Positions 6,685 to 41,400 of a DNA stretch of 64,000 bases are shown piece by piece; position 1 is the stretch's first letter; every line of letters begins with the position of its first letter. The stretch covers positions 248,001-312,000 of the forward strand of contig JAFCMP010000014.1 of assembly GCA_017506865.1 (NCBI GenBank). Direction: 5' to 3'. A model generated the notes under the pieces. The model made no database searches. It was not told where the DNA came from and saw only the letters and a list, made by a program, of their open reading frames with translations. Source of the DNA: Tribonema minus (taxonomy: Eukaryota > Sar > Xanthophyceae > Tribonematales > Tribonemataceae). The position numbers and the translations under genes were made by a program.

Positions 6685-6789
6685 AGCGCGCGAGCGAGCC
6701 GCCGCGATGCTGCAGAGGGCGCGACCGGCGCGGCGCCGCCGGCGCACGGCGGCGCGGCGCAGCGGCGGCTGGTCGCACCAGCACGACGC

Positions 6790-9319: not shown

Positions 9320-12300
9320 CTACTTGGCCAGCTTGCTGAGGTGGTTGATGAGCACGATGAAGCCGCCGAGCAGCGCCCACACGAGGATCTTGATGATGTA
9401 CATGCTCGGTATCTTCCAGCCCATCTGCAGCGAGACCATCGGCCACAGCGCGTGCATGCACAGGAGCGCGCTCGCAAAGACGGAGATGAGGTTCTGCGCC
9501 CACGCGCGGAAGCCGTACTTGCCGACCCAGAAGAGGCCGCCGCCGAGCGCCGCCACCTGCCCGAAGAAGACGGTGAAGAGCGGCCACGTGGGCGCCTTGA
9601 TCGCCCACGCGTTCTCGTGCTTCTGGCACCGCAGCGACGTCCACAGCATGGAGAGGAACGCGTAGATCTGCACGTACGTCGTGGACAGCCAGACCTGCGG
9701 AAGGCGCGCGGGGCGCGCGCAGGGGGCGGCGGGGAGGGGAGGGGTGAGCGGCAGCGGTCAGCGGCGCTGGCGCTGGTGTGCTGTCTGCTGTACCTGATTG
9801 GTGTAGGGGTGAGTGTGCCGTGCTGAGGCGTGATGATGTAGGCTCGGCGGCAGCACAGCGCTGGCTGCGCAGCGGCATCCGCAATGCGGCGGCGGAGATG
9901 AAGGCACAGAGCGGACCGTAGACTGTCGAAAGGCATGCCGCCACCGCACGCGCGGCGCCCGCCGCAACAAGCAAAGGATGCGGCGGAGGCGGGCCGTCGT
10001 TGGCGTATTGTGTGTGCAATGCTGCAACGGGGTGCGCGTCAAGTGCACAACGCACTGCAGGCCGTGTGGGGGCCTCAACAGGCCAGGGTTATACGATACC
10101 CCCTCTCCCCCCTTCCGACCACTTCATAGCCTGGTGAGCCAGGCCGCATTGCCTGTGGCAGAGGCGTGATGAGGGACGCCCCCAAGAAAGAAAGCGCACT
10201 GCTTGAGCACGTGTGCGCTGGTAGCAGCGCCGCAGTTCAATTCCGCATGCGAGGTCCAGCGCGTCAGGCCAAGAAGAATACCAGGCTCATCAAGTCCTCT
10301 TGCCGCCTCAGCGTCTGACCACATGGTCTGTGCACATTACCGGTATACGGGTGTCTGCGCTCCCAGCGCATGCGCGAGCATACCATATTCAGTGTGCTTG
10401 CCATGGAGCGAACACAGATACAAAGTACAGCAGTTCAGAATACTTCAAAGCGAATACGCGCGCTCTGCGCTGCAGCGCCGATGAGCGCTGCCGCCGCACC
10501 TGCTCGTCGCGCTGCAGCTTGTTGGCGTCGACGTCGCCCCACGAGCCGCTGATGACGGTGGGCAGCATGCCCGTCACAATGTACGGCGTGAAGTAGAGGA
10601 AGAAGTCGGCGACGCGCGTCTCGAACGGCGAGTTGCCCGTGAGGCCGTAGATGATGGGCATGAGCAGCAGGATGTAGCCGGGGATGGCCTGCGCAGCGGC
10701 GGCGCACGGAAAGCGTGCGCGGTGAGCATCACCGAGTGACATCGGTCAATAGGCATGTTGAGCACTGTCAGCAGCATGCCATGCAAATTCAGCATTTTGA
10801 ATCCATGTTTAGCTGCAGCAACGCATGTGAAATTGTGGCCGCGACAGCTCAACACCACTCTTTCAAGAAGCACGGTGCCGTTTTTCCTGTTGAATGGTTC
10901 GAGCAGCGCACCTGCAAGTAGTACGTGGCCTGGTCGAAGGCGTAGATGCGGTGGAAGAGGTGAATCACACTTGAATTCATGCATGAAACAGCGCTCGGCG
11001 CACCTGCAGGTAGTACGTGGCCTGGTCGAAGGCGTAGATGCGGTGCCACAGCGTCGGGAAGCGCCCGCCGAAGCTCGTGTAGCTGATGCCCTTGTAGAAG
11101 AGCAGCTGCACGGCGCCCTGGTGCCAGCGCAGCACCTGCAGCGGCGCTCAGCACAGGGCAAAAAGTGTCAACTTCAATTATACCAGAAGAGCAGCTGCAC
11201 GGCGCCCTGGTGCCAGCGCAGCACCTGCAGCAGCGCTCAGCGACAGGCGGCAGCGTACACGACAAGACGCATGGGCGCGATGAGCAAAGTCTGACCGTCG
11301 TGCGAGGAAGTCTACGCAGCCTGGTCGTGGCGGCGCCGGCGCGGCATCTGCCGTGCGCACTGCGCGCGGTGGCTGCTTGACGCGCCACGCGACGCAGTGG
11401 GGCCGGCGCGCACCGCTCAGAAGGTGAATGAGCGGATGAACGTTCATCGTCGAATGAAAACGTGGTGGCGACTGCAGCGCACCTGCTTGGTGAGCCACGC
11501 GATGAGCCCGCGCTGACGCATGCGCGGTGCGTGTCAATGTTCATGCATGAATGACTGAGTGAACAATCATGAACCAACAAATGAACTATGACGGCGGCCG
11601 CGCCGCACCTGCTTGATACGCCATGCGATGCTGTTGGGCTGGTGCGTGCAGATGCTCAGGTGCTCGCCCGGCTCATTCACGTAGCGGGACGTCCAGCCGT
11701 GGCGGAACATGTCGATGCTCGTGTGCGTGTCCTCAATGAGCTGCGCGCGGGCTCACGTGGGGGGTACATGTTTAGTTCACAGAAGTACACTGCAAGTACA
11801 CATGAACCACGTAGCGGCTCCTCCAGCCGTGGCGGAACGTGTCGATGCTCGTGTGCGTGTCCTCGATGAGCTGCGCACGGGTTCACATGGGGTACGCATT
11901 GAGTTCGAGCAGATACAGTGTGAGTCCAGATGAGGTACAGCTGCTGGCGTCGATGCTCGTGTGCGTGTCCTCGATGAGTTGCGCGCGGGTTCACGGGGGG
12001 TACAAAACGAATTCACCAGAGTACACACACGGGGTGCTCATGCTCTGTTGCTCGCCGTGCCCCATGGATGCAGCAGCTTGTCCGGCCGTGGAGGCAACAG
12101 ATGCTCGTGTCACGGGACGACATGTGGGGTGGGCGCAGGGTCGGGACGCACAACCGTTGCGCCGAAGAGCGCTGCTGCGCGGCACGGCGCAGGGGGCCCC
12201 GCCGCTTTGCAATAACCTGCCCCCGCAACGCCGCGGCAGGCGGGGCTGCGAGCGCCCTTCTGGTCTCCGCTCTGCTGCCGCGCTGCATGCTGATCGAGAC

Positions 12301-14722
12301 GGCACCCCCCACAGCGCGCTCCCCCGCTGATCACACGCGCTGTGTCTCGTGCGCTCACGCCGGCAGAGTCTCTAACGGCGACGCGTGCTGCGCGCCGGCG
12401 CTCACCATCTGGCTCCTGAAGCCCAGCGGCTCGCCGATGTTGGCGACGTTGGCGAGCTCCGCATAGCGCCTGACTACATGCACAAATCTTAGACACATAC
12501 CTCAGGGTCCTGACAAGGACACCTGTGCGCCGGCGCTCACCATCTGGCTCCTGAAGCCCAGCGTCTTGCTGATGTTGTCAACGACGGTGGGTCGGCGCAG
12601 CGCCGCCCGTATACATGTCATTCACATCACAGGGTCTGACAAGCCGCCATACACACACATCTCATAAATTCAGTCCAACAACAACACAGAACTATGCGCC
12701 CGCGCTCACCATCTGGCTCCTGAACCCCAGCGTCTTGCCGATGTTGTCGACGACGGTGGGGTCGGCGTAGCGCCGCCCGTCCACGTCCGCGCCCCTCAGC
12801 GCCTCCACGCGCCACAGGCTGCCGTGGCCGCTGCGCAATGTGTTTGGCGAGCGCGGACAAATCAAGAGCGTGTGTGAACATGGCTCACTTGCGACCGTAC
12901 GGCGCGGTGTGTGTGTGTGAGTGAATAAGACGCGCGTCAGTTGTGCCAGGCATCACGGTCGCGGCTGCTGAGCATTTTGGGGCGCGCGCGCGTGCGGGCG
13001 GACGAACAGTGAGTGGGCAGGCATCCATTCGTTGGCGGCGCAGGCATGCGGTAGCTCGTGGCGCATTCGTGCGGTGCGGGTTTGCGTGTGGACGGAGCAG
13101 GCGGCCGTGGCCGCTGCGCGTTTTGACTTGCGCAGGCGGACGGACGAATCGAGAGCTTGTCTGATCGCTGCCATCGTTGCCCCTGCCCATTACCATGTTC
13201 ATAGGTCTACTGCACCGCGATGTATTCTCCATGCCCGGAACACCAAGCACAACTTCAACCGGGACGCTCCACGCACCTGGAGCTGACGGCGCCAATGCCG
13301 TCCTTGCCCCTGTTGATGACGTCGTACTGCACGGCGGCGCAGTACCCAAAACCTCAAAGCACAACTTCAACAAAGACGCTCCACGTACCTGGAGCTGACG
13401 GCGCCGATGCCGTCCTTGCCGCGGTTGATGACGTCGTACTGCACGGCGGCGTGGTTGCCGAGCGGGTCGTCGAGCGTCATCTGGTCGGGCTTGAAGCGCT
13501 GCGGCGTCTGCACGAAGGCGACGCGCGCCCAGCCGTAGTGCTGCCCCTCCGCGTCGAGCTCGAAGAAGTACGGCACGGTGCGCTGCAGGAACGTCGGGTT
13601 CAGCTGGTGGCGGCAGTCGTTCACGACCACGATGGTCGCGTCGCCGATGAGCGGGTCCTGCGCGCGCGCGATCGACGACGAGGAGCAGCATGGCTCAGCA
13701 GCAGTGATTGGATCGGCGGTGGCTGCCACGGCGTGCGCTTCTTCGATGCGTGGCGCGTACCTGAGCGTGTGACGCGCCGCAGTGAGAGAGGAGCGGCAGT
13801 GCCGCGCATGCACACACGCGTGCAAAGGCCGGCCACGTGACTTCCGCGTGTGACGCTGCGCGGCGGTGACGTGCCGCAGGAGCGGAGGCGGGCGCCGCGC
13901 ACAGCGGCGCGGCGCTCTCACGTCCTCGGCTGATGCAAGTGCGAGCAGTAATTGGTAACCTGCAGACAAACCTGACGTCCAACCGTAACGTTGAACCCCT
14001 ATCCGTAGTGATGATGATCGGCAGCGCTCTTTGGGGTGGACAATGGCCGCGTTGAGTTGCCGGCCTTCGGCGACGCATACAGTCAGCCCCTAACTCTCCA
14101 CTCCTAGCCCTAACCCTAACCCTTGCCGCTCTTGGACGCCATGCGAACATGCATACGCGACCAACCCTCGGCTCTGCCTGCCCTTACCCCAACTAAAAGC
14201 CTAGCCCTACCCCAACGCTCATGCACTTGCGTCCTCCGGGTAGTCCACGGGGATGGTGGCCGCGTTGAGGTTGCCCGCCTTGGGCGACCCACACGCACAC
14301 ACACACACGTGCGCATGCTCAACCGGCCTTCAACCCTAATTCTGACTTCAACCCTAATCCCCTAGCCCTAACCCTACGCTCGCGCACTCACGTGCTCGGC
14401 GTAGTCCACGGGGAAGATGGCCGCGTAGAAGTTGCCCGCCTAGGGCGACCTCCCCCCCCCCCCCCCCCCCGCCCCCCTCCCAAGCACACACACAAACTCG
14501 CATGAGCAACCAGCCCTCGACTCGTCACTCGCTGCTTCAACCCTAACCTTAACCCTAGTCCTACCCTACTCACGTCCTCGGGGTAGTCCACGGCGAAGAT
14601 GGCTGCGTTGAGGTTGCCCGCCTTGGGCGACACGCGCGGCGTCCCCGCGTCCTTGCGCGTGTAGTACAGCAGCGTCGGCAGGTCGGGGTTGCTGGAGAAC
14701 TGGTGCACGTAGCCGGCGTCGA

Positions 14723-14757
<35 letters not shown>

Positions 14758-17700
14758 GCGCCGCCGCCGCCGCCAGCGTCGGGGCTCGGCGTGGGGATGT
14801 TGAGCGCCTGCAGCATGGAGCGTGCGAACTCCTCCACGTCCTTGCCGTGAAGCGCGGCCTTGGAGCCCGCGGCGGCGTCTATCGGCATGTCGGAGAGGAG
14901 GAAGATGGAGTCGGCGTCCTCGCCGTTCCCCGCGTGCTTCTCCATGTACTCAAGCAGCAGGCACGCCTTGTTGAGCCAGGGGTCGTTGTACAGGTGCTTG
15001 CGCGCGTAGCCGCCGCCGAACTTCCACCAGTCGTAGAAGCCCTTGACGTTCTCCGCGTCGATGCCCTCCGCCTGCAGGATGGTCACCACCTCGGGGTTTC
15101 TGGGGGGGGGGGGGAAGTAAATCCAAATGGAGGTCAGCGCCGCTGCAATGCAGCAAAATGCATGTGCTGATACTGAGCGTAGCAAACTTCAACGTGGCGT
15201 CTATCCCCTCGGCCTGCAAGATGTGCCTGCAGCGGGCGGGTGACATGCGCAGGTTCGCCGGGCGACAACACAATAAATAACATGTTCTGACTGCAAAGCC
15301 TTCGGCAGTCAAGCGGGGCCCAAATTTACAACAGACAACATGTTCAGGAGTATAAATTCTGTTCAAGACTCTGATCCGCACTCATGCTGGCAACATGTCA
15401 AGGCACCGCTGGGGCTGCTGAGTGCTGCACCAGACAGCAAAGGGCTCCAGTGAGAGCCGTCAGCGCGCTGCGCACTTGATGAGCGTGCCCAACGCATACA
15501 TGGCCGCGGCGATAATGAGCAGTGCTGAGACTGCTGAGCTTTTCATTGAGGAAAAGGTTTTTACTCAAGAAGTATCGGCGTGCTACTGCTCACCTGATGA
15601 GCGTGCCGAGCGCGTACACAGCTGCGGTCATGTTGAGCACGCCCTTGCGGCGCTTCTCGTCCAGTATGATGATGCGCAGCATTTGGGACTGCGCGGGGCG
15701 GGGGGCGGGGGGGGGCACAAGGGGGTGTGGGGGGATCAAATGTCAGCACGCGCCGAGCAGCTGACACAAGCATCAGCCGCGAGCAAGCACGTGCCATCCT
15801 GGACATCCCTTCCAAAACGATGAGGCGACTGCAGCGAGAGGGTATCAGGCGCCCCGCAAAGAGGCGCACGCTGCTGCTGCAGCAGGGCCGCGGCTGCCGC
15901 GGCGGGAGGCGATGCGTGCTGTCACGCGGCCGCGGCGGGGCGCGCGTGCACTGCCAAGTTCACCGTGTGCTGCAGCATTCAAGAAGCGGCGGCGAGCGGC
16001 AGCGCTGCCGCCGCGCTCATGGCACACCTCACTGCAAATGCTAGAAGCATGCGACTCCATTGCGCACGGCGCTGGCCATGCAGCGAGCGCGCTGCCGTGC
16101 GCTGCTCCGGCGCAAAGAAGGGGCGTCAACCCACTGCGCTCTGTCACGCGCGACGCGGGTTTTGCGACACTCCGCTGCGCGCGCTGCCGCGCGACCATGC
16201 CGAGCACCATTCGGGGGCGTGCCGCGGCGCCGCACGATGACGCTTGCATGACAGCACTCGGCAGGGCGTGGTTGGCAGCAGCACCGTACGCCGCGAAACG
16301 CGGACAGGGGCAATGTCAGGCGCAGTGCACCAGCGGTGCTCAGCGCATCAGCGCTCACACTGCGGTGCGCAGGTCACGGGGTGGCAGTCGCGGACGGACC
16401 GCCACGGCGCGCTCCATCCGTGGCGGTGCGCGTCGCAGCGCCCTCGCTCGGCGGCGGCGGCGGCGGCAGCGCCCCCATTCGGCAGCGGCAGCGCACAGGG
16501 GTGAGGGTGCGTACGTGCAGGGCAGGCAGTGCTCAGCGCGCGCGGCTGAGCGCCTCTCACCGTGGTGCGGTTGCCGCCGCGCCACGTCGACTGGCTCATG
16601 GCGCCGAGCAGCGCGAGCATGACGATGTCGAGGCGCTCGCCGGCGCTCGGCAGGAGGATCGCGACGCGCGCGTTATAGCCCACGCAGTCGTCCTCGCGCA
16701 CAAGGTCCTCCATCGCGACGATCGCGCGCTTGATGGGGAACATGCGCTGCGTGTGCCCGATGAGGATGCCAATGGTGAGGCAGATCTGCGGACGGGGGGA
16801 GAGGAGGGGGGGGGGGGGGGGGGGGGAGGGGGGATGTTAGTGTGCACGCCGCCTGCTGAGCAGCGGTTGCGCGCGGGGGCGGAGGGTCCGTGCGTGCGTG
16901 GCGCCCGCTCACATTCGCCCAGCCTTATGACCACTTGGTGGAGGTGTGCAGCGCTTGCTTGAGCGCTCGGGCGTGGCGCACGGACACCAGTTCGGAGTAG
17001 CAAGACCGGATGTGCATGAGCGCTGATGACTGACCCTAACCCTAACCCTACCCCTAACCCCAAGCCCAACCCTTAATTCGACCCTAATCCTAACCCTTAA
17101 TCCTAACCCTTGACCATGCAGTGCAGCGCAACTTCCCAGCTCACGCAAGTCGCCACCTTCTGGAACCCTTCGAGCTGCGCGCAGGGGGTTATAAGCCTGC
17201 GGCGCAGCGACGGCACTCGCACAACAATATCATCGCTTCAAGAGTCCTGAGTCTGAGTTCGAGTCAGCTGGTGATCTCACCTCGACGCCGTAGAAGACCC
17301 ACGCCCAGATCTGCACGGGGAAGTACTTGATGTTGTAGAAGTACCTGCGGGCAAAGGCAGCGGGGGAGTAAGGAAAAACAAGAGGATGCAGCAGCTATCA
17401 GGCTCTGGGGCAGATGGGGGGGAGAGGGCTGCGGCGCAGGGCGGCCGCTTGTAACCTGTGCAAGAGAGGCTGACCAGGCCCCCAGTCAACCGGCACGACA
17501 TCTCTGTTCATTGCGGCGGCATAGCCGTCTCCAACATCTCCAACATGATCAGCGAGAGCTCATGCAGGCACGTGCTGGGCGTATCACCACCTCCCCCCGC
17601 CCCCCTTGACATTCAAATTGCCTGGCGCAATGCTACCGTGGGGTCCCTGCCCCTCCCCTCCTCAACTTGTCGACCGCATCATGTAACCCACTAATCCGCC

Positions 17701-17808
17701 CCTCCCCCCAATCCCCACACAATACTACCGCCACTTGAGACATGAGCGGTCCCCCCCCCCCCTCCCCCCAATTCCCACACAATACTACCGCCACTTCAGA
17801 CATGAGCG

Positions 17809-17846
<38 letters not shown>

Positions 17847-18129
17847 CCCCGGCCCCCCGCGCGCGCGCGCACTCACGTGTCGATCGTCGTGATGGTGCTC
17901 GTCGCGCGCCAGTACAGGTACAGCGCCGAGAAGCCGACGTTCGCCGCCATGATGAGGCGCAGCAGCGGCGTCGAGCCGAGCGCGAAGAACGCCTGCGGGT
18001 TCGGCTTGAACTGCTGCTTGAGCACGACGGCGTCGTCCGCGTACGCGCCGCCCGCCGCCTCCGACGGCCGCAGCCCCGCCGCCGCCGCGAACGAGTTCAC
18101 GCGCCCGCGGCTCAGCCAGCGCGTGTGTA

Positions 18130-18162
<33 letters not shown>

Positions 18163-18322
18163 GGCTGCCGCCGCCGCGGCTGCGCGCGCTGCCGCCGCCG
18201 CCGCCGCCGCCGGCGGTGTCGAGCGACGGCGTCGCGGCCGGGAAGTTGGGGCCGGGGGAGGGGGGCGGCGCGCTGGGATTGGTGCCGCGGACGAGCTGGA
18301 GGGCGTGCGCCGGCGAGAAGCC
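9320..18322 (-). CDS. Processive family-2 glycosyltransferase, cellulose-synthase type
   Basis: Eleven minus-strand exons join in matching phases: 18322-17877, 17344-17281, 16785-16561, 15688-15594, 15099-14574, 13657-13389, 12830-12710, 11740-11609, 11135-11004, 10688-10500 and 9694-9320 (about 857 residues; the true start may lie further upstream). Two helices precede the catalytic part, which contains NARVAILLPSAGER, VSPKAGNLNAAIFAVDYPED, GDATIVVVNDCRHQ, FLQRTVPYFF, RVAFVQTPQRF, NRGKDGIGAVSS, an IEDTHTSIDMF..GW.S.YV block (TED equivalent) and KQ|VLRW, a QxxRW motif split by an intron. About six C-terminal helices follow. This is the layout of membrane synthases that polymerise and extrude beta-glycans from UDP-sugars. 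Product and substrate cannot be read from sequence. The usual DxD appears as DCR. Confidence 0.85.
10909..11236 (-). repeat. Copies of both edges of the QxxRW exon
   Basis: The exon at 11004-11135 has an echo of its donor end at about 10909-10960 (same CACCTGCA..TAGTACGTGG core, offset 92 bp). It also has an echo of its acceptor end at about 11191-11236, offset exactly 90 bp. Each copy includes the splice-site sequence and is followed by unrelated DNA. Confidence 0.8.
11824..12130 (-). repeat. Serial copies of the IEDTHTSIDMF exon start
   Basis: The first 45 or so bases of the exon at 11609-11740, plus its upstream acceptor, recur at about 11824-11896 and 11948-12002, with a weaker copy near 12085-12130. 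Each retains GATGCTCGTGTGCGTGTCCT or a close variant (shorter in the last). All lie in the intron on the 5' side of the exon in the sense direction. Confidence 0.8.
12400..12610 (-). repeat. Two copies of the GFRSQM exon end
   Basis: The donor end of the exon at 12710-12830 (sense GGCTTCAGGAGCCAGATGGT) recurs at about 12400-12470 and 12530-12605 in the downstream intron, each followed by GAGCGCCGG. The copies have point changes that alter the encoded residues. Confidence 0.8.
13265..13350 (-). repeat. Copy of the GKDGIGAVSS exon end
   Basis: Bases 13265-13340 repeat 13378-13453 with a 113-bp offset, including the donor and the intron start with its GTTGAAGTTGTGC word. The copy lies just downstream of the donor in the sense direction. 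Confidence 0.8.
14020..14446 (-). repeat. Three copies of the AGNLNAAIFAVDYPED exon end, with CCCTAA spacers
   Basis: The donor end of the exon at 14574-15099 recurs at about 14393-14446, 14226-14295 and 14025-14075, progressively more diverged. Between them lie CCCTAACCCTAACCCTTGCC at about 14107, CCCTAGCCCTAACCCTACGC near 14365 and related words before 14570. Encoded peptides drift (for example KAGNLNAATIPVDYPED). Confidence 0.85.
17032..17115. repeat. Interstitial CCCTAA-type array
   Basis: About 80 bases of CCCTAA, CCCCTAA and CCTTAAT variants sit in the intron between the exons at 16561-16785 and 17281-17344. The array is degenerate and internal, so it is not a chromosome end. Confidence 0.85.
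17695..17845. repeat. Tandem pair of about 60-bp units ending in poly-C
   Basis: CACACAATACTACCGCCACTT followed by GAGACATGAGCG or CAGACATGAGCG occurs twice, at about 17716 and 17777. Each unit ends in a C tract; the second exceeds 25 C. The units lie in the first recognised glycosyltransferase intron, but the poly-C is on the antisense strand here. Confidence 0.75.
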
Positions 18323-20031: not shown

Positions 20032-20541
20032 CTGGAGACCCGCCGGTGGGAGTGACTCTGCTTGCTGTGCGTGGCTGGTGGAGGGTCGTTCTTCGAGGGC
20101 AGCGGGGCTAGCTGACTGCACGGCAAGCGAGATGCAAACAAAGTGCAAGATGACCATCATTGCTGGAATCAATCACAAGACCTCCGCGCACAGGAGACAG
20201 TATTACCTGACTTCGGTACTGCCGTGGTCTTGACTGCCGCTGCGCATCCCTCCAGCCCTAAGGTATGAGCTGATGCTGCCATTGCTGAACTGCGAGCGAT
20301 GCGTGCGATGTCCTTTCGCGGACTGGGGCGTGCCCCTCTCCTTGCTCGACGCCATGGCGTCAGCAGGCGGTGAGCCTAGCTACCGCCGTCTGCTGCGGCA
20401 CTTTCACTCAAGACTATTAAAGACTAGACGCCGCTTCTGCGCTGCTGCTCTGCTTCACCGGCACCTTCTCTTCGCTTTGTTCACAGGCGGTTACATTTCC
20501 AGCCTGAAGTTGTGTTCTGAAGTTTCACTCACTTTTGTGAC
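20032..20541. other. Intergenic upstream of the YidD-like gene
   Basis: No supported exon is visible. This segment should contain the promoter and 5' leader of the plus-strand YidD-like gene. No TATA-like or other named element stands out. Confidence 0.4.
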
Positions 20542-30139: not shown

Positions 30140-30170
<31 letters not shown>

Positions 30171-33100
30171 TGAGTGTGTGTTTTGATTGATTGAGGAGAG
30201 GGGGGGGGGGGGGGGGTGAGCGTGTGTTTGTCTGCTTGGGGAGAGGGGGGGGGGGGTCAGCATACCTCTGCCGCCCCGAACGCCCGCGCTGTTGACGACA
30301 TAAGGTGGCGCTGCGGCATCCACACTGCTGTGTGGGTCGACTCGGTCGAGTCCATTTTCCGCGAGAGAACCACGGGGGACGGCAACTGCTGCGCCAGCGC
30401 CGGTACACGCGGCGCACGGCAAAGCTGCACTGACAAGTACTGGGCGATGAAGCGTGGCCGCCATGGCTGCGCGCGTTCATTCAGAAGTGCGAGCTCGCAG
30501 CTGCGAGCGCTGGCCTTTGTCGCGCCCTCAGTGAAACATCAAATGAAACGACGAACGCTATACGCGCCGCCGCCTTGTCATGGCGGTCGGCCGCAACCTA
30601 ACCCTAACCCTAACCCTGACCCCGCATCCGCCAGCCGCGCGCAAGCACGCGCGCACCCCCTCACGCAAGCTGCAGTCCGGTCACTCTGACGTGAAACGCT
30701 ACCGCACCCCCCAACTGCAGGAGGAGGCGCACGCGCGCGTCCGTTTCTCACATGCCTTCAACTTTTTACATAACTTCAACTTGTATTTGCACGCGGAGCG
30801 TCACCGTCCGTGTACTCGTGCTCGTCGGCGTCCGTGACGAGCAGATCGCGCCCGCCCGGCACCAGCTCCGGCACGTCGTAGCGCTCGCACCCATCTTCCA
30901 CAAAAATTCAACTTTTTTCACACGCAGAGCGTCACCTCTATGTACTCGTGCTTGTTGGCGTCCGTGACAAGCAGATCCCGCCCGCCCGGCACCAGCTCCA
31001 GCACCTCGTAGCGCTCGCGCCCGCCGGGCGCGTGGCCCGCCACCTCCATCGTCGAGAAGTCCAGGCTCAGCACCTGCGCCGCCGCCGCCGCCGCCGTGCG
31101 CGTGATCAGCACGGTCAGTTGCGGAATGAGTACAGTTGCGTCTGATGCTGAAGCGGCGCTCAGCATGCGGCTGCATGCGCGGTCGACGCGGTCAGTTGTC
31201 GCACATCACCAAGTGCCTGAAGCAGAGCTCAGCCTAAAGCAGAGCTCAGCATATGGCGTGCGCCGCCACCTCCATGGTCGTGAAGTCCAGGCTCAGGCCC
31301 AGCGCCACCTCCGCTCGCCGTCAACACGGTCAGCTGTCACATATCATGGATTGCCTGACGCAGAGCTCAGCATGTGGCTTCGGCCACCTGCGTGGCCGTG
31401 AAGGCCAGGCTCAGGACCTGCGCCGCCGCCGCCGCGCCCTCGCGCGGTCAACTCGGTCAGCGACCCGCGCGGCGCGCGCGGCGCCGCAGACGCACAGACG
31501 GCAGCGCGTTGCTGCGCGCACAGCGCTGCGCGGAGGAGCTCCGCACGGGGTGCTCGCATGCGCCATTCTCTTCAACTTTGAAGTGAAGTGAATGCCGCAG
31601 GTTTACCACCGTCAGTTAGGGAAATTCGCGCGGTACGCAGTCCGTGACACCGGTTCCTCCGGTTCTGTCGCCAAAGCGCACGCTGATGGAGTGCGCAGAC
31701 GGCACCTGCGCCGCTCACCTCGGCGCCCTGTCGTGCAGGCGTGTCCGCGGCGGCGCGCACCGCCGCTTGGCATGCCGCCGCAGACGCACGTACGGCAGAG
31801 TAGCGCTGCGCGCGCGTACGCGCGCGCACGCACCTCAGGCGCGAGCACCCGCACGCACCGGCTACGTGCACTTCAGTTCGTAGCGATGCATACACTGCAG
31901 AGCCGATGGGAAATCCTGCAAAGACAGTGCGCGACACGCTGATGTAATGCGAAACGCCGTGCGACTCACGTCAGCGCCCTGGTGGCTCCGGAGCCACTCC
32001 AGGTTCTTGTGCAGCTTGGGGTCGACGAACTGCAGGTCGCGCGCCGTCACGGGCGCGCCCAGGATGTGCTTGTACAGCGTGCGGCTCAGGTGGATCGGCA
32101 GGGACTTCTCCTCCTGGCGCGGCGCGGGAGAGCGCGCACGAGGCGCAGACACAGCAGCAGCAGCAGCAGCAGCAGCAGCATCAGCGGCGGCTGGACTCTG
32201 TTGAGCAGTGAGGTCTCACAGCAGCACTTGCGCTCATTTTTGCCGGGCCAGCTATCACAAAAACAGATGCGAGCGGGGCCGAACACGCACGCGCCACAGA
32301 TGCACACAAGTTCGGATGAGCGGGCGGCAGTGGTGGGTACCCGGCCTGCGGTTGCTGGCGCCACGCAGCTGTCCGAAGTTTGATGATAGCCCCCCCCCCC
32401 GCCCCCCCCCCCAGTGCGCATCGCGTCCTCCGCTGATGCACGGTCCGCAAGCCTCTGCGAGGCTTGAAGCGATCGAGGGCGCGGTGCGACGCACGGCGAC
32501 CGCGCGCGTGCGGGAAGCGGCGCGCCGCGGCGGCGTGCACGCGCACAGCGCCCGCAGCCCATCCTGCGCCCCGACTGTGAACCATCTGATCATTGCGGAT
32601 GCGGCGCGGAAGGCGCCTCGACCACCAGGCAAACAGTGCCGCCGCTGAGCAACGGGCGCAGTGCACGCTACGATCACCACTGGCATGGAGCGATGCAGTA
32701 GAGTCCTGCAACCCCCCATCAGCGCGGGTTTGGGACCCCTCTCGATGACCGCCCCCCCCCCCCACCCCCCCAATGCCACCCACCACTCACCAGCATGGCT
32801 TTGCCGAGGAAGCGCCCGGCGAAGCGGTACGCGGCGGGCAGCGCGCCGAACGCGCGCGCCGCGGCGGCGTACGTGCGGAAGTGGCGCGCCGTCGCGGCGT
32901 TGATGGTGTGCGTCATGTTGTCCGTGGGCGCGTACGCAAAGAGGCCGAGCGCGGGCGCGAAGAGCGCCTCCGCGACGAGCTGGAACCACTCGCGCCCCAC
33001 GCCGCCCGCGTCTATCGCGCTCTCGCCGGCGAACCTGCGGCGGCAGCACGGTGGCAGCGCTCAGCAACGCCAGCCGAGGTCTCATGGCGCGACCGCCACC

Positions 33101-35986
33101 GCGACCGCGACCGCGATCGCCCGCCCGCGCGCACGGTCGTGGCTCCGCACGCGCCGCGCCGCGCCGCGCCGCGCCGCGCCGCGACGTGGCGTTGCTCAGC
33201 GCTGCAGGCAAGGGCGGCGCGAAAACGTGCACGGCCGCAGCGCCGCGCCGCCGCCGGCACGTTTGCGCGCGCGCACGCGCAGCGGCGATCAGCGCGGCAC
33301 CACACTCATGCACGCGCCCGCCGCCAAGCTGCATGCGCGGCGCGGCGCCGCGGCCGGCGCACAGACTTCAACTACCACGTCGGCCCTCACCTGAACTTCA
33401 TGGGCAGCCGCAGCTCCTCCGCGCTCAGCGCTGCGAACGCGGCCGCGCTGCTCTCCAGCAGCGCCGCCCGGCTCACTTCGAGCATGACGACACCCTCGTC
33501 CGTCCCCAGCGCTGCCGCCGCCGCCGCCGCAGCTGCCGAGTGCGCCAAGCGGCCGCCGCGCTCCTCTGAGGCCTGCACCTGCCGCCGCCGCGCCAGCTGC
33601 GGCTGGTGCCATGGGTGCAGCCATGGCTGCTGCGCCCCTGCCGTCGCCGTGCCGCCGTCGCCGTCGCCAGTGCCGCTGGCAGCAGATGGCCGCTCGACGG
33701 TCGCCGCCGTTCCGCCCCTGACATAAAAGTCATCTGCAGCAGCAGCTGCGGCAGCAGCGACGAGCGCTGCCGCCTGATGCGCGCTGCTGTCGTCGCCGCC
33801 GCCGCCGCCGCCGCTGCCGCCGCCGCCGCTGCTGCTGTCGCTGACGCCGCCAGACCTGCCTGCATCGCCACGCTGCAGCATGCGCAGCTGGCGCCGCAGC
33901 CACGCGCGCTTCGCCTCAAACGGCAGCACCGCTACCGTCGCGAGCGTATCTGACGTCACGCAGCCGCCGCCGCCGCTGCCAAAGCTGCCGCTGAAGTCCG
34001 CATCGCCGGCGGCGGTGGCGCCGGCGACACAGGAGCGGCTGCCGCCGCCGCCGCATGCGCTTGCGTTGAGCACTGTCACCAGGCGCTGCAGGTCCGCCAG
34101 CTCCTCCCGCAGCTCCGCGCCGCGCACCCATTCCAGCGTGCCGTCCGGCAGCATGCGGCGCAGCCACGCGCCGCTGTGCAGCCCCGCCACATGACCGTCG
34201 CCGCCGCCGCTGTCAATCGGCACTGCTGTCACCGCTGCCGACGGCGGCGGCGCAGAGTCCGTCCCTACGCCGCCACCTGCCGCTGCAGTTTGCGCTGCCG
34301 CTGCCGCCGCATCGCCTCCGCCCACGTACGCATACAATTCGCAGCGCTGCGGGTCGTGGTGGCTTGCGCCCGCAGCGGCGGACGCGTGCCAGGACGGCAC
34401 GGCTGTCACGGCGGCGGCGCCGTCCACGGACACCCATATGATCTCGCCCGTTCCGTCCAAGCTCCGCACTCGCCGCCGCCGGCCGCCGCCGCTGCCGACG
34501 CCGCCACCGCTGCCGCCGCCGCCGATGCTGCTGCTGCGCAACACCCATCGGTCGCCCCCCCCATCGCCTGCCGCCACCCCCAGTGCCGCGGACGCTACCA
34601 CCGCCGTCGCCGCCGCTGCCGGCGCAGTGCTGCCGCGTGCGCTGCTGCCAAACGCGAGCTCGCGCGGCGGCGTCACAGCCTCCGCAATGATGGCGGCAGC
34701 GGGGTCCCAGTGCGCGGCGACAGCGGGCAGCGGCGTGGCCGCCTCCGCGTCTGCCGGCGGCGGCAGCGGCGGCGGCGCCGTGTCGAGGCGGTCGCGGTAG
34801 CGCGCGCGCAGGTACGCCTGCTCGCAGCCCCGCAGCTCCGCGCGCCAGCGCAGCCACGAGCAGCTGCGCGCGTCGTACGCCAGCAGCGCCGCCAGCAGCA
34901 GGCGCAGGGCGCCGTTGAGGTACATCTGCGGCGCAGCGGACAGCACGCGGGAGGTGGGGGGGGGGGAGGGGGGGCGGGGTGGTAAGAGCGAATCGAGGGC
35001 GATACACAGTGAGGTGGGGGCGATGAGTGCTGCCGCAGTTCCGGCAGCGCGCATCACCACCCGCAGCGGGAGCTGCAGGCTGCCGCCGCTGAGAATACGA
35101 ATGGCGGCGACGGCCATCTGCCCCGCCGCCGCCGCCGGAGCGCGACGCAAGTGCGGCAAGCGCGCGCGGGGCAGCGGCGACGCCGCCCCCGTCGATCGAA
35201 AAGAAAAGCCCGCCGGCCTCGCGCTGTGTGAATCGGCGCGCACCTGCGCGCGGATCGCGGGGGAGTCCAGGTGCGCCGTGGCCGTGACGCCCGCGGCGGC
35301 GGCGAGGTTGACGGCGAACGCGAGCGCCAGCGCGCACTCCACGGCGTACAGGCGCCCCACGCGCACCGGGCGCCAGAGGCGCACCACCACCACGGAGAAG
35401 AAGAGGAGGACCGACGCGCAGAGGGTCATGGTCAGCCCCACCTGCGTGCGCGGGGGGTGGGGTGGGGGGGGGGGCTGAGTGGTTGCTGTGCGGCAAAACC
35501 TTGACGGGCAACGAGGGCGACTGACGGTGGGCGACTGTCCGCGCATTAGCGTGTGAAGGTGGAACAGAAGGCGGGAGCGCTGCCATGGCAAGGGGCGGCA
35601 CGGCCCGGCGTCGAAAGGGCGCACAATGCATGACGGTCCGCGTTAGTGTTCGAAGAGGTCAGAGGCACGGGCGCAACGCATGCGTGCAACAACAACGCAT
35701 TGCGCGCTCTACGCAGCACCGCGTATCAAATACTTCAAAGCAGGCGCGGTCGCTGCAGCACTTCTGAGAGCGCAGCGGTGGCGAGGGGTGTCACGCCCTC
35801 AGGCGGCTGGGTGGAGCGTGCCGAGGCTCAGCGCAATGCGGCGCGCCGAGGCTCAGCGCGGCGAGACGAGTCAGCGCTCGGTGGCTGCAGCAGCAGCAGC
35901 AGCAGCGGCGGTGGCAGCAGCAGCAGCAGCGGCAGCAGCAGCAGTAGCAGCAGCAGCGGCGGCGCCGGCAGCAGCAGCAGCCGCAG

Positions 35987-36017
<31 letters not shown>

Positions 36018-37908
36018 GCTCGCTCACCTGCTGCGCGAGCGAGCTGCCCGCGGAGCACGCGTCCTCTGCCGTGCACGCCACCCAGAGCACTACGTCGTAC
36101 GCCATGAGGAACGCGAAGGCGCCCAGCAGGGGGCGCGCGGGGCGCGCCGCCGCGCGCGCCGCCGCCACCGCCTCCGGCGCCTCGAGGTAGTCCTCGCGCA
36201 GTCCGAGGCCCGCCCAGAGCGAGCCGCTTATGAGCGACGTCGCGCACAGGCGCACCGCCGCGCAGAACGACAGCGACAGGATGATCCAGAATAGCGCGTT
36301 GCGCACGACCTGCGCCGCGCGCGCGCGCGGGGGGGGAGGGGGGGCAGACGCCGCTGATGAACATCAAGTGTCGGCGGGGGCGGGGGGGGGGGGGGGGGGC
36401 GTGTGGGAGCCGTGTTTCTGCAAAGCGTTGTTGTCTCGACGAGCCGTGGCCGCCGTGATGGATGCGCACATGTGACGAGGACGCCGCTTCGCTGCACGCG
36501 CACCACACGGCGCACCACGCAGCGCGCTCCGACCGCTCGCCGGCGCATGCGGCGCCTTGCCGACCTCCGCATCAGCGCTCGGCGGCTCACACGTGAGGAG
36601 CGGCCTCCTCGCGCTACGCTGCGAGCGGTGCACTCCTACACGTGCGGGCGGTCACAGCGCTCTCGCAGCGCGCGCGGCGCGGCGGGACGGGACCTGCGAA
36701 CGCTGCGCCGTCGCCCGGCAGCTCGTACGCGGCGCATGGGGCGTTGCCGCCAGGGTTTGGGCCGGTCGTATACTTCGACTACGCATGGTCAGCGCCCCAG
36801 CGTCGTCGCGATGCTCATCGGCGAGTACAGCGCACGCGGCGGCCCAAGCCTATGATGCGACAGCTGGGAGCGTTTGGCAGTTAAACGCTCATTGCCGTTG
36901 GCACGCTTGACGGTCACGGCAGGTACACTTGCCGGTGCACGGACCACTACACAGTCACTTATAGCAGCACGCCGCTGGCGCCAGTCTTCCGTTGCGCTGG
37001 TGACCTCGATATCTACCTCTGTCGGCATGGAGCACCTCTCTACCGGCGGCCTAGCCCGCTTCCTGACCCTACAATACTACTAGATACGAGCGATCAGTGC
37101 TCCAGCGTGCGCGCCGCCCACCGGCGAGTACAGCATGTGCGGCAGCCTGAACCCTGCGCTGCTACTACCGGCGGCCTAGCCCCCAGCCTGACCCTGCGAG
37201 AGTACTACATGGTGCACGATCAGCGCTCGAGCGCGCGCGCGCCGCTCACCAGCGAGTACAGCACGTGCGGCGGCAGCGCCTTGCCGACGGCGGCGCCGTC
37301 GCTCGACAGCTCGTACGGCGTGAAGAGGCGGAACGCCGTCGCGGCGAGCGTGAAGGCGAGGTTCGCGACGACGCAGCGCCGCACGACGCGCGCGCCGAGC
37401 AGCGACTCCGCCAGGAACGAGAAGAAGCAGAGGAGCACTGCCACGACGCCCACGAGCATGTCGAGGAAGAGGATCTGCTCGACGAGCGCGTCCGCGCCGC
37501 GCTGCGCCTCCTGGAAGAAGTGGACGCCGAGGATGGCCATGGTCGGCGGCGCCATGATGCAGAAGTGGATGATGTGGGGGCTGCCCGCGGGGGGGGGGGG
37601 GGGGGGGGGGAGGGAGGGGCACAGGGGGGGGGCAGATGGGCACAGGGGGGGCAAAGGGGGGAGGGGGAGAGCGCAAACGAGGAAAAATGAGCCGTCCTGA
37701 AGCAAAGCATCACAGACCGATTGCAGTAGAGTGCTCTCGTGTAGGTCGCGGCACGGCAAAAGCTCGTGCCAGAATTTCTGGTGAGAGCACTACCTGTTGC
37801 ACATCGGTCAGCGGGGGTCGGCACACAATGCAGGGCGCGGGACACCACGCACAGCCCTGGAGAGAGGAGACCGCAGAGCGCGCGATAGCAGAAGGAGGAC
37901 ACGCACGT

Positions 37909-37963
<55 letters not shown>

Positions 37964-40900
37964 CGTTGCCGCCACCGGTTGATGACGTGCAGGCGCGTGT
38001 GCGCAGTCGGCGCGCGGCACCGCCACCGCTCGCGACGAACGCACAGCCAGTCGGACGGAGGCGCGCCGTGTCATCTTCAAGTGGTGCTTGGAAGTAGCAG
38101 CCTCGAAGCGCGAGGCTCGCGGGCGCCGATTGCGACAGCAGACCTGCGCCGCATTCGGACGCGTGAGCGTATTATCGATGTTCGCTCCAGGCGCAAAAAC
38201 GCTGAGATGGATGTCAAGCCTGCTGTCCGAGAGTCCTAGTGTATTCTTGTGGTGACAGGAGTCGCGTATGTGCCTTTAAACAGCGCGCGGGCGCCGCGCA
38301 CGCAGCGTCGGCATTCGCGTCGGTAGTCAACATACTCTACACTGCAGGAGTAGGCTTGGGTTAGGTGTTAGGGTTTAGCGCAATGCCTGAGCACTGTGTT
38401 GCTGGGGTGCGATGCCTGCGAGGGCTAGGGGCTCAGGGTTTGGGACGCACCTGAGCACTGCGGTGCTGCGCTGCGACGCCCGCGAGGGCTAGGGCTAGGG
38501 TTTGAAACGGACCTGAGCACTGCAGTGTCGGGGTGCGACGCCTGCGAAGGCTAGGGCTAGGGTTTGGAACGGACCTGAGCACTGCAGTGTCGGGGTGCGA
38601 CGCCTGCGAAGGCTAGGGCTAGGGTTTGAAACGTACCTGAGCACTGTGGTGCTTGGGTGCGACGCCTGCGAGTACATCCACTCGGGCACGGGCGCCTCGC
38701 CGCTGGCCGTGCGGTAGATGCCCATGGTCGTCACCAGCACGAGGACGTCGTCCAGGACGTGGCGGTTGTACGTCAGGTAGATGAGCGTGAGCGCGAGGAA
38801 GTAGAAGTTGAGCGTCACCGTGGTGAAGAGCTGCCGCAGGGGGGGGGGGGGGTGGGGGGGGGGGGGGTGGGGGTCAGGTACGCTGAGCAGCAGCTGGAGG
38901 CGCGTGCGCCTGGCACGTGAATGCAGTTCGATGCGACGATGCATTGCGCTTCCCCCGCCCATGCCTTCACGCGTGTGGCAGGAACTGCTACGAAATGCTG
39001 CTGCGGCCAGCTACCGCACCCGCGAGAGCGCAGCCTCCGCAGACAGCTGCAGCCGCTGCCGCAGCCGCGCGAGCGCAGCTGCCGCAGGCGCTTGGACGCG
39101 CCGCGGTCGACGCGAGTCTGTCGGGCAGATCGAGAACTGTGTACCAGTCGGAGCGCGGCGACGCGGCGAGGACGTGGAGCTCGACACTGTAACCTCAATT
39201 TTGACTTGACGAGTGGTGACGCCGCTCACTGAGGTGCAACAGCAGCACCCCCCCCCCCCCCCGCCCCCCTCGCACGCAGCCTGCCCGAACGCGCGGAGCC
39301 CCTCACCGCGATCCACGCGAGGCTCTCCGGCACGTCGAAGTCCGCGTAGTAGTCGGAGCGCGGCAAAGCGGCGAGCACGTGCAGCTCGACGAGCTTTAGC
39401 GCGACGTCCGCGCCCACGAGCGCCGCGAAGAGCGCGCAGCGCCGCAGCAGGCGCGCTGGCGGCGGCGCGAGCTCCCCGAGGCCGCGCAGCGCGGCGCCGT
39501 GGAAGCGGTGACCCGCCGCACACACGGCCGCGAAGAGCAGCACCTCGGCGAGCATCGCGCCGCGGACGGCGCGGTCGCGCGCGCCGCCGAGCGCGTGCGC
39601 CGCGATGAGCGCGCCGCACTGCAGCAGGCACAGCGGCAGGCGCGCGCGCGCCCAGAGGGAGTAGACCTGCGCGCGACCGCGGGGGCGCGCGCGGGGGGGG
39701 GGGGGGGGGGGGGGTTGAGCTAGAGCGAGTAGACAAGCCTGCGTGAAGGGGGAGGGGGGAGCGCTTTCGCGTCGGTGGTGCGCAGGCTTTGAGCGCTGCT
39801 GGTGGCGACCGGCGGTGGGGGTACCGCAGAGTGAGGCGGCACGCAGGGCGCTGGTGCCGCCGGATCAGCCCCCAGTGCGGTGGGGGGATGGCACGGCAGG
39901 AGCCATGCGCCGACTGTGCGCTGGCGCGGCGAGCGCTGCGTTCGGCGCGCTGTGAATGATTCGCTGAAGAAATGGGTGCTTTCGGTAGCTCCTGACAACG
40001 CGTTGCCAGTGGGAGTACACCACACATGGTAACCCTAACGCTAATCCTGATCCTAGCCCTAGACTCAATTGCCGCAAGGTCATGTTGACCCCGGTCATGG
40101 CGACTGGCGTTCTGGGTGCCGCAGCTGATCACCAGCCAGACTCAGTGGCCCAGCTGGTCTGCAAGAAAAGCCAGCAAAGCCCTACTGCAGGCAGCATTGG
40201 CGCAACCCTAGCCTGCAGCCGAGACGCTCGAGCCAACACAGCGGACGCGCAGTGCACACTCGAACGCAGACGCTACACCGTGCATACAGTGGTGTGTTGC
40301 CGCAGCGCGCTTCGGCGCAGCCGGCGCCCAGATCGCGCACACACACACACATGCTGATGCTCCTCCTTTCCTGCGCGCGACGAGACTGCCGCCCGGCAGC
40401 GGCGGCGCGCGCGCGCGCACGCTGCCCCTCTCCTCGCACTCACACACACGCGCATGCTGATGCTCCTCCCTTACTGCACGCGACGAGACCTGCCGCCCCC
40501 GCAGCGGCAGCGCGCGCGCGCACTCTGCCTCTGTCGCCGCACCTGCGCCAGCACTTTCATGCCGCTCCACCGCGCGTCGAGGCCGTCCGCGGCGGCGCGC
40601 ACGAGGCGCACGACGCGGCGCGTCAGCGCGCGCATCTGCCACGCCGGCAGCGCGAGCGCGAGCGCGAGCAGCAGCGCCGCGGGCGCGTACGACGCGGCGG
40701 CGCGGCGCGGCGGCAGCGGCGGCGGCGCGAGGAAGAGCGTGAGTCCGCCGGCGACCATGAGCAGCCACTGCAGCGCGTCGATGGCGGCGTCCCACACGCT
40801 GACGCGCAGACCGAGGACGTGCGCGTCGAGGCCGTCGCTGAGCGCTGCCCCCGCGCCGAGGCCGCTCGCCGCGAGGCACTGCGGGCTGAGGAAGAGCCAG

Positions 40901-41400
40901 AGGAGGGGGTTGCGGCCGTGGAGCCAGCCGTGCAGCAGCGGGGGGATCGCCCAGAACAGCAGCACCTTCCACTCCACCGTGTCGATGTACTGGTAGAGGC
41001 CTGCCGCAGGCGCCGGGGGGGGGCATGCAGTGAGCCGATGACGAGAATCCGGAGTTTCGTGAGTGAAATGCACAAACTTCAATCACCGACACAGCCAGAA
41101 AAGTCAGGAACTGATGTGACGAAATCGAGGATCAGCAAGCGCCTTGAGGGAGCTGCCACCGATCATCAATGACACTGCACTTGCCCCAGCAGACACTTCA
41201 GTTTTCTCTTATGTTTCCTCACCTCCCAGCAGAGCCAGGTGCAGAAGACCGTGGCCTGTCAAAGTGTAAAAGAGGCCAAATGGCGGCTCCCCCCCCCACA
41301 CCTGCTCGCCGTAGAGGCTCCCGATGGTGTCAGGACTCGGAGCAAGCTCAGCATCTTCGGTTCTCGCCTTGCTTCGTCTCCTTTGCACCCACGCCAACAT
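28396..41400 (-). CDS. Polytopic membrane HECT-type E3 ubiquitin ligase
   Basis: Thirteen minus-strand exons join in phase: 41400-41223, 41000-40543, 39666-39307, 38830-38637, 37580-37250, 36309-36028, 35441-35244, 34925-33391, 33034-32791, 32113-31970, 31073-30936, 30112-29907 and 28711-28396 (1527 residues from the ATG at 41400). The first seven exons and the start of the eighth encode about 16-18 hydrophobic helices (for example KVLLFWAIPPLLHGW, FYFLALTLIYLTYN, MLVGVVAVLLCFFSFL). A long Gly/Ser/Ala-rich loop follows, then a full HECT domain: ESAIDAGGVGREWFQL, LFAYAPTDNMTHTINA, FAGRFLGKAML, LELVPGGRDLLVTDANKHEY, ELELLTCGLDVIDVDDW, and the catalytic-cysteine region YPMAHTCFNRLDLP, ending GFGKE. 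HECT ligases accept ubiquitin on this cysteine before transfer. A membrane-embedded ligase is therefore predicted; substrates and membrane are unknown. Confidence 0.85.
29280..29705 (-). repeat. Copies of the CGLDVIDVDDW exon end
   Basis: The donor end of the exon at 29907-30112 (plus-strand GGGGCGCAGCGCGCCGAGG then the CCCAGTCGTCGACGTC region) recurs at about 29633-29705 and 29452-29520, with a weaker version near 29290-29335. All lie downstream of the donor in the sense direction, within the last intron. Confidence 0.75.
30137..30265. repeat. Three poly-G units with TGAG/TGAGCGTGTGTTT spacers
   Basis: Three G tracts of about 10-27 bases, each next to a GAGAGGGG word and separated by TGAGTGTGTGTTTTGATTGA or a variant, lie just upstream (sense) of the 30112 acceptor. 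In the transcript they are poly-C. The array looks like tandem duplication of one poly-C unit. Confidence 0.75.
30597..30620. repeat. CCCTAA repeats in a HECT-gene intron
   Basis: Three to four consecutive CCCTAA units occur between the exons at 29907-30112 and 30936-31073. Confidence 0.85.
30806..30890 (-). repeat. Copy of the RDLLVTDANKHEYIE exon end
   Basis: Plus-strand GCAGATCGCGCCCGCCCGGC and flanks at about 30806-30890 repeat the exon edge at about 30936-31020 with a 130-bp offset, including the donor and following intron bases. Confidence 0.8.
31262..31460 (-). repeat. Two copies of the LSLDFSTMEVAG exon start
   Basis: The acceptor end of the exon at 30936-31073 (plus-strand CCACCTCCAT.GTCG.GAAG then TCCAGGCTCAG) recurs at about 31262-31340 and 31383-31465, each followed by GCGCC-rich sequence and a GGTCAGC.GTC word, also present next to the true exon. 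Confidence 0.75.
35880..36022. repeat. GCA/CAG-rich trinucleotide tract in a HECT intron
   Basis: Interrupted GCA and GGC triplets fill the start of the intron that follows the exon 36028-36309 in the sense direction. The tract abuts the donor region. Confidence 0.85.
36717..37150 (-). repeat. Copies of the LPPHVLYSL exon end
   Basis: The donor end of the exon at 37250-37580 (plus-strand GCGAGTACAGCACGTGCGGC) has a close copy at about 37107-37150 and another at about 36800-36845. A fragment resembling the CAGCTCGTACGGCG part of the exon lies near 36718. All lie in the intron downstream of that donor. Confidence 0.7.
37911..37961. repeat. (CAG)n microsatellite
   Basis: About 16 CAG units lie within the HECT-gene intron spanning 37581-38636. 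The tract is nearly uninterrupted, with one CAA near its end, so it is probably length-variable. Confidence 0.9.
38386..38670 (-). repeat. 62-bp tandem array of an exon end plus donor plus telomere-like spacer
   Basis: CCTGAGCACTG starts at about 38386, 38450, 38512, 38574 and 38636. The last is the real donor edge of the exon at 38637-38830. Each unit holds, in sense order, the last 25-30 bases of the exon, the donor and CCCTAGCCCTAGCC. Spacing is 62-64 bp. Central copies are nearly identical and the outermost is most diverged. Confidence 0.9.
39147..39185 (-). repeat. Internal copy of an exon segment (LHVLAALPRSDYY region)
   Basis: Plus-strand AGTCGGAGCGCGGC..GCGGCGAG.ACGTG.AGCTCGAC occurs in the exon 39307-39666 and again at about 39149-39185 in the downstream intron. 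The copy matches exon sequence well inside the donor, not the donor itself. Confidence 0.75.
40325..40545. repeat. Tandem duplication of about 110 bp next to exon 2 of the HECT gene
   Basis: GCATGCTGATGCTCCTCC and the ACGAGAC.TGCCGCCC..GCAGCGGC block occur at about 40350 and 40452. The second unit abuts the donor of the exon 40543-41000. Confidence 0.75.

Follow-up and report, generated by a model that had tools for sequence, protein, structure and literature searches.

The introns of two unrelated genes in a 64-kb stretch of the Tribonema minus genome (C14:248001-312000, hereafter the window) carry serial, diverged copies of the edges of their neighbouring exons. The genes encode a cellulose synthase of family GT2 (gene A) and a multi-membrane-span protein with a C-terminal HECT E3 ligase domain (gene B). 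It is confirmed that the pattern is real and extends beyond the window. We consider it quite likely that small tandem duplications arise frequently in this genome, and that those crossing an exon-intron border stay silent through splicing at the outer site, the copy turning intronic and the intron growing longer.

Exon-edge copies in the window and beyond

A search of the window for ungapped direct repeats at offsets of 25-600 revealed 46 pairs, 36 of which fall at 9.3-18.6 or 28-41.8 kb; the same search in three dinucleotide shuffles of the window gave 0 pairs each. A Pfam scan of the raw open reading frames of the window gave a match in 1 of 10. The best protein match of gene A (Tribonema minus) is 100% identical over the 687-residue query, and P0003, a transcript-derived relative, is 74% identical over the whole of that query. 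The exons of gene A were first read by hand and then turned out to agree exactly with the annotated protein P0001. Nine of its edges, six donor and three acceptor, carry up to three copies each, with nearest periods of 89-182 bp and identities of about 73-100% (Table 1).

The direction of the copies was assessed in verified exons, i.e., those given by an exact spliced match of the DNA to annotated proteins. The verified set comprises 26 introns, 10 of gene A, 11 of its paralogue C6 and 5 of its paralogue C479 (the last exon of C479 was cut at 2891, though the match extends to the end of the piece, and its donor side lies outside the test). The last or first 60 nt of each exon (half of the exon if shorter) were compared with both flanking introns, with 200 dinucleotide shuffles per edge; a donor edge against the upstream intron and an acceptor edge against the downstream intron served as the wrong-side control. 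The downstream intron holds a copy of the donor edge in 12/26 cases, and the upstream intron one of the acceptor edge in 6/26, with 0/26 on the wrong side for either kind. The totals, 18/52 vs. 0/52 (Fisher p 1.3e-6), agree with the preliminary description, which placed donor-edge copies 3' and acceptor-edge copies 5' of their exon. By gene, the edges with copies number nine in A, nine in C6 and none in C479. Most of the A and C6 matches extend across the border into the intron, of which up to 60 nt was offered, and a few of the listed matches do not. In these two genes the nearest periods are about 90-220 bp, with up to three clear serial copies per edge.

The annotated protein of gene B itself was not found among 16 protein matches, none of which is named from Tribonema. 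Its edge copies were listed without shuffles, and the borders were set partly by eye. Nine donor and eight acceptor borders were examined, and a match with a score of at least 20 was present at 9/9 donors and 4/8 acceptors. Seven donors and one acceptor were accepted; the latter, near 31090, is an approximate border, the base used having no preceding AG. Donor 36028 was discounted as a GCA repeat, donor 40543 for a period at odds with the local ungapped repeat, and acceptors 39666, 36309 and 33034 for scores of 20.5-23.5. The two genes thus bear out the initial claim of at least nine places with one to four copies per edge, the count being up to three in either gene, besides one 62-bp array of 4.6 units. 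The accompanying claim of 60-190 bp periods holds in general, but gene B has several nearest periods above this range (205-334 bp).

Beyond the window, 250 kb of the 158-Mb genome (554 contigs) were sampled as twenty 10-kb stretches and one of 50 kb, picked by round coordinates with their content ignored. The exons in this sample are predictions of a custom self-trained gene finder. Its first run reproduced 8/9 training exons of gene A exactly, cut exon 6 short by 11 nt and predicted numerous very short false exons; a later setting, on which the counts are based, called some copies exons and misplaced some exon ends of gene A. The headline figures are therefore based on the exact protein matches. 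In the 250 kb, copies were found at 10/73 donor edges on the right side vs. 3/73 on the wrong side and at 13/71 vs. 0/71 acceptor edges, or 23/144 vs. 3/144 when pooled (Fisher p 4e-5). With predicted exons, the window gave 8/35 vs. 1/35 for donors and 3/36 vs. 1/36 for acceptors, and C6 gave 7/12 vs. 1/12 and 5/12 vs. 0/12. A reverse-complement control in predicted introns yielded 0/43 and 0/39. The excess of exon-edge similarity over controls expected from the preliminary description was thus found at the scale of the 250 kb sampled. Edge copies are also present in Pfam-anchored genes for a kinase, a kinesin, UPF0029, EF-hand and flavodoxin-fold proteins and an NAD-binding oxidoreductase. 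Seven genes, most of them chosen because copies are present, were examined over 15 predicted introns; donor copies occur in nine of these and acceptor copies in four, and one acceptor edge has four copies.

The counts leave out low-complexity edges and windows, edges less than 300 nt from the ends of a stretch, exons scoring below 12 or 15 or shorter than 45, 50 or 60 nt, and predicted introns above 1300 nt. In L015, the predicted upstream exon is the outer copy of an acceptor edge, so the intron predicted there is false; the edge copies in L015 are real.

Table 1. Genes and exon-edge copies. Positions are those of the window unless a contig or piece is named; numbers in brackets after a copy are periods in bp, and fractions are identities.
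Feature	Position	Strand	Support
Gene A, cellulose synthase GT2, 11 exons	9320..18625	minus	exact spliced match to annotated protein P0001, 958 aa
Gene A first exons	17877-18625, 17281-17344, 16561-16785 (E3), 15594-15688 (E4)	minus	match to P0001
Gene A middle exons	14574-15099 (E5), 13389-13657 (E6), 12710-12830 (E7), 11609-11740 (E8)	minus	match to P0001
Gene A last exons	11004-11135 (E9), 10500-10688, 9320-9694 (stop included)	minus	match to P0001
E4 donor edge copy (118), donor GTGCGC	15460..15521	minus	48/62, score 30.5; edge test z=11.1
E5 acceptor edge, weak copy (142), AG absent	15178..15223	minus	35/46, score 20; z=8.6; under stricter threshold
E5 donor edge copy 1 (182), GTGAGT retained	14342..14449	minus	88/100
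E5 donor edge copy 2 (343), GT changed to GC	14167..14295	minus	95/118
E5 donor edge copy 3, decayed (557)	13980..14074	minus	66/89
E6 donor edge copy (112)	13239..13339	minus	93% over 95 nt ungapped; 82/90
E7 donor edge copy 1 (170)	12475..12610	minus	112/126
E7 donor edge copy 2 (304)	12371..12470	minus	79/100
E8 acceptor edge copy 1 (128-130 5' of exon)	11808..11928	minus	102/120
E8 acceptor edge copy 2 (236-238)	11932..12026	minus	79/94
E8 acceptor edge, possible copy 3, decayed (388)	12034..12142	minus	77/105; missed at stricter threshold
E8 donor edge, two decayed copies (115, 239)	11363..11543	minus	77/106, 43/58; z=7.2; second alone passes stricter threshold
E9 acceptor edge copy (90)	11196..11247	minus	50/51
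E9 donor edge copy (92)	10906..10953	minus	37/38; 98% over 48 nt
Gene B, multi-membrane-span protein with HECT domain	28400..41000	minus	gene finder, HECT homologues, tblastn; exon limits approximate
Copy of donor edge 39307 (205)	39059..39181	minus	93/120
62-bp array, 4.6 units, of donor edge 38637	38359..38672	minus	TRF; 73/85; z=9.8
Three copies of donor edge 37250 (128, 431, 588)	36627..37146	minus	58/70, 51/66, 75/99
Copy of donor edge 32791 (334)	32382..32536	minus	102/126
Weak copy of donor edge 31970 (236)	31676..31806	minus	86/110, score 24.5
Two copies of acceptor edge near 31090 (215, 342)	31256..31460	minus	69/81, 72/85
Copy of donor edge 30936 (130)	30768..30885	minus	102/116; z=30.5
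Three copies of donor edge 29907 (264, 455, 635)	29274..29720	minus	76/90, 57/70, 61/75
C6, cellulose synthase paralogue	C6:181001-191000 (L034, L006, L004, L035)		12 exons from residue 308 of P0007 onward
C479, cellulose synthase paralogue	L005, 3 kb piece		6 exons, exact spliced match to P0011
C346, third cellulose synthase paralogue	C346:324049-327304 (L003/L008)		carries edge copies

Tandem duplication and its effect on introns

Across 314 kb, 318 repeat pairs were found at offsets of 20-2000, with a peak at 100-139 bp and 15 pairs above 1 kb; 152 of 185 nearest-copy pairs lie at offsets of 40-249. The spacer is 0-5 nt in 37 of 51 pairs with a gapped identity of at least 0.88 (border and interior pairs, those of the L027 satellite included), so most are true head-to-tail duplications. 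The copied length in the same set has a median of 101 nt and quartiles of 71.5 and 128.5. At the junctions of seven near-complete ungapped units (satellite left out), the run minus the period is -6 to 14; few units are intact. A gapped measure of the position of the border within units was noisy and was set aside.

Where the unit straddles a border, two donor (or acceptor) sites result: the exon conserved in the protein has the outer one, and the decaying copy has the inner, intronic one. The event would be silent because the spliceosome stays with the outer site. The extra piece of exon would thereby be intronised and the intron would become longer by one unit, and repeated events would build up a ladder of copies. 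The cause is probably mis-repair of staggered breaks, with opposed nicks about 50-200 bp apart, through fill-in and end joining. Exchange between paralogues then probably spread some of the duplicated borders in the cellulose synthase family. The proposal of the preliminary description, repeated tandem duplication across exon-intron borders caught at several ages, is supported, and well beyond the window.

The differences between exon and copy amount to 67/512, 45/517 and 89/511 at codon positions 1, 2 and 3 (13.1, 8.7 and 17.4%; 27 copies with an identity of at least 0.74, the count omitting those below 74%). This roughly matches the expectation for an unconstrained copy next to an exon that accepts silent changes, i.e., mostly neutral decay.

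The effect on intron length is consistent with this reading. At a stricter threshold, copies are found in 6/10 introns of A, 6/11 of C6 and 0/5 of C479, and the edge duplications account for 1749 nt of the 6429 nt of intron in A, for 1487 nt of 5152 nt in C6 and for 0 of 1405 nt in C479. The median length of predicted introns is 958.5 nt with a copy (n=10) and 448.5 nt without one (n=36; p 0.002), with the caveat that longer introns have more room for copies; in the verified introns, the difference is weaker (483.5 vs. 371.5 nt; n=12 and 14; p 0.06). Intron lengthening, the first outcome suggested in the preliminary description, is supported by the share of intron nt covered in A and C6 and by the longer predicted introns with a copy.

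The second outcome suggested there was intron gain at AGGT sites, which may occur but is unproven. A duplication-born intron should start like the downstream exon and end like the upstream exon. This layout was sought and found in 0/26 verified introns; among 46 predicted introns, one doubtful candidate has it at both ends (L016:6679-6868), its flanking exons being repeats of each other, and one end of another (L028) fits it with z 4.8. Intron gain was accordingly set aside as the main outcome. The L016 locus (6498-7006) has a 190-nt predicted intron between mutually repeated exons, its ends resembling the flanking exons, and may represent either an exon that was duplicated or an intron born of duplication. 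Intron presence does change within the cellulose synthase family: C479 (at about 2891) has no intron between YYLQ and AIPGY, where A has intron 9 (11003-10689) and C6 has intron 10, and C346 has an intron between WDR and VAFVQ that is absent from A, C6 and C479 and, by eye, lacks the duplication-born layout.

It was also suggested that the copies supply decoy or alternative splice sites, and they might be retained for such a function, tuning the amount of productive mRNA. GT is kept in 18/21 donor copies, with a mean score of 5.8 vs. 6.3 for true donors, and 5/30 copies in A and C6 outscore the true site. On the other hand, 0/30 copies in these genes (3/30 being weak matches, insignificant in the edge test) would give an open, in-frame extension of the exon, and coding use was set aside on this ground. 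Moreover, AG is kept in 5/9 acceptor copies and lost in 4/9, identity goes down to about 73%, the codon-position pattern fits mostly neutral decay, and C479 does without any copy in its five introns. Retention for function thus appears very unlikely as the explanation.

Introners, i.e., mobile intron elements dispersed through the genome, which might bring along or pick up exon edges, are a highly improbable source. Some intron motifs do recur (TTAGGG-like and TTGAAGTTG), but the copies match the neighbouring exon. A 380-nt query from intron 5 of gene A matched itself, its own exon edge and nine stretches of 28-55 nt elsewhere in the genome; the nine all fall over one G-rich part of the query, in a search of this one intron with very common words skipped. 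An assembly artefact has next to no probability, because the divergence between copy and exon reaches about 27%, and nothing was found in its favour; the differences of 0-27% imply graded ages, and the pattern is seen in several contigs.

Several repeats were noted in their own right. TTGAAGTTG is about 90-fold over-represented (65 vs. 0.7 expected) and occurs in the intron after 13389 and in its C6 and C346 homologues. Telomere-like TTAGGG tracts lie at 14167-14572 and 38359-38672 of the window and in introns of the sampled genome. TTAGGGTTA occurs 98 times in the sampled sequence vs. about 0.7 expected from base composition. A lean to the sense strand is seen in introns for TTAGGG (12 vs. 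0, verified) and TTAGGGTT (40 vs. 19, predicted); TTGAAGTT has no consistent strand bias (15 vs. 4 in verified and 35 vs. 29 in predicted introns). Intron 1 of gene A contains a 60-bp tandem duplication (17699-17829) that is wholly intronic and adjoins a G run. In intron 7 of C6, 25 nt (local 4109-4133) are a remnant of the edge of exon 7 (23/25) and lie 1211 nt on, near the far end of the 1237-nt intron, as if an array had once filled the entire intron. A satellite-like array of 236-bp period spans about 2.7-3 kb at L027:762-3508. Outside genes A and B, the window has a tandem pair of 45 bp, from which a related copy is about 500 bp away (48506-49123). A 165-bp direct duplication, divisible by three, lies at 51061-51363 within an alanine-rich open frame of 1532 aa (minus strand).

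Possible border preference and probable exchange between paralogues

In the 250 kb, a neighbouring copy was found for 17.4% of 230 border, 10.3% of 6141 intron-interior, 3.2% of 2691 intergenic and 4.2% of 1192 exonic test windows; many of the intron-interior matches are the border copies themselves. The same measure in the 64-kb window gave 12.1% at borders, 3.9% of 1373 in intron interiors, 3.6% of 110 in intergenic and 5.0% in exonic sequence, and shuffles gave 0/1404. One may assume that breaks or template switches happen preferentially at junctions, e.g., through transcription-coupled nicks or G-rich intron starts, and that duplications would therefore be more frequent at borders than in the interior of introns. 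Such targeting of borders is unlikely in our estimate, although 32 of 158 pairs lie at borders vs. 9.4 by random shifts (21/130 vs. 6.9 without the window) and 0/500 shifts attain the observed border share. The excess is found at identities of 0.82-0.88 (7/38, null 6%), 0.88-0.94 (17/49) and at least 0.94 (5/19, null 8% for both), and in the verified genes a second copy was seen in just 8/305 interior windows that are not exon-like (A and C6 being related).

Several corrections reduce this excess. The density of duplications in the 250 kb is higher within genes than in intergenic sequence, so that the shift test overstates the excess (the window itself does not behave so), and border copies would decay up to about twofold slower, one copy being constrained. 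At identities of 0.70-0.82 there is no excess (3/32, null 8%). The five youngest border pairs include one from the satellite array of L027 and two flanking the same exon of gene A, and missed exons blur the border and interior classes. In 46 reliable predicted introns, 11 border vs. 7 interior events were counted against a null share of 0.42 (p 0.086).

The cellulose synthase paralogues raise the question of whether most of their copies stem from paralogue exchange or shared ancestry and not from fresh local duplication. The sequence after the exon 6 donor, with its GTNNGTGGAGCGTC intron start, is common to A, C6 and C346, each of which has its own tandem copies of that border, and the exon of A with its copy is colinear with two C6 copies. 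In the last exon block, E9 of A and E10 of C6 are identical at 33/33 nt, and the intron start and the copy about 90 nt on also agree; C479 has 28/33 nt there despite its closer protein kinship to C6 (88% identity for C6 and C479, 61% for A and C6). The simplest reading of near-identical exon ends and similar intron starts at these two A/C6 borders, given 61% protein identity, would be gene conversion between dispersed paralogues, with shared ancestry as a less simple alternative. However, when five homologous intron starts of A and C6 were compared, just two showed a clear likeness (a sixth pair is at a differing position), and copies are also present in unrelated genes. As the source of most copies in this family, exchange or shared ancestry seems rather unlikely, though worth keeping in mind.

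A more elaborate possibility, which we regard as doubtful, is that borders are true duplication hotspots and that the intronic copies form a pool converted back into exons and between paralogues, with concerted evolution of exon edges and intron starts as the result. It is hinted at by the border share among pairs of at least 94% identity (5/19 vs. 8%), by the A/C6 tract and by the serine codon of C6 exon 7, which is TCA or TCG in the exon and copies 2 and 3 and AGC in copy 1, A and C479.

Silent duplication across borders, with splicing at the outer site, is the reading that we prefer, and the following points weigh against it. No edge copy is found in the five introns of C479. The predicted exons of the 250 kb come from a self-made finder, with exons missed or miscalled and copies called exons, and with such exons wrong-side matches do occur (3/144 in the 250 kb, 1/35 and 1/36 in the window, 1/12 and 0/12 in C6). 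The number of border pairs, 32 vs. 9.4, exceeds a purely random process before corrections. Differences at codon position 1 exceed those at position 2, which is unexpected under neutral decay, and the first copy of C6 exon 7 differs at third positions alone (6/6), again unlike neutral decay. The use of the outer site would follow from the annotated protein P0001 and its conservation with P0003, and staggered-break repair is a probable origin by analogy with other organisms.

Relation to known systems

Introns are seldom caught growing by means other than transposons. The T. minus genome contains many border duplications of graded age, with the source exon adjoining and the protein indicating the site used. 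The step from a duplicated splice site to a longer intron thus becomes countable, and the choice that the spliceosome makes when near-identical sites lie about 100 bp apart is put to a natural test.

Tandem duplications across borders have been published before, as has the lengthening of introns by repeats; new are the frequency and the serial pattern. In the sources covered by a limited literature search, no account was found that describes introns with copies of exon edges in Tribonema or any other alga, or that treats such serial copies as common, and border duplication looks unusually common in T. minus. In the published border-crossing case, the copied intron-exon border likewise provides the splice signals; however, a single event gives a new intron there, whereas in T. 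minus serial events lengthen existing introns, with no proven new intron. The AGGT duplication model of Rogers (reviewed in PMC3443670) also has tandem duplication and splicing hide extra DNA, but its exonic AGGT unit becomes an intron, while the unit in T. minus spans the border and the copy joins an existing intron.

The introns of Caenorhabditis F-box genes (PMC8665587) similarly grow by short tandem repeats and vary between paralogues; unlike in T. minus, exon-edge content and border crossing are undescribed in the portion of that account available. Introners (PMC9860276) are described as changing intron content on a large scale, as happens in T. minus, but they are dispersed and create new introns, whereas the T. 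minus copies are local and derive from the neighbouring exon edge. Nearby nicks in opposing strands are reported to give small tandem duplications via CST-Pol alpha fill-in and end joining (PMC8355091). That work concerns mouse ES cells with overhangs of 43 and 50 bp, and by analogy the same process is a plausible cause of the duplications in T. minus.

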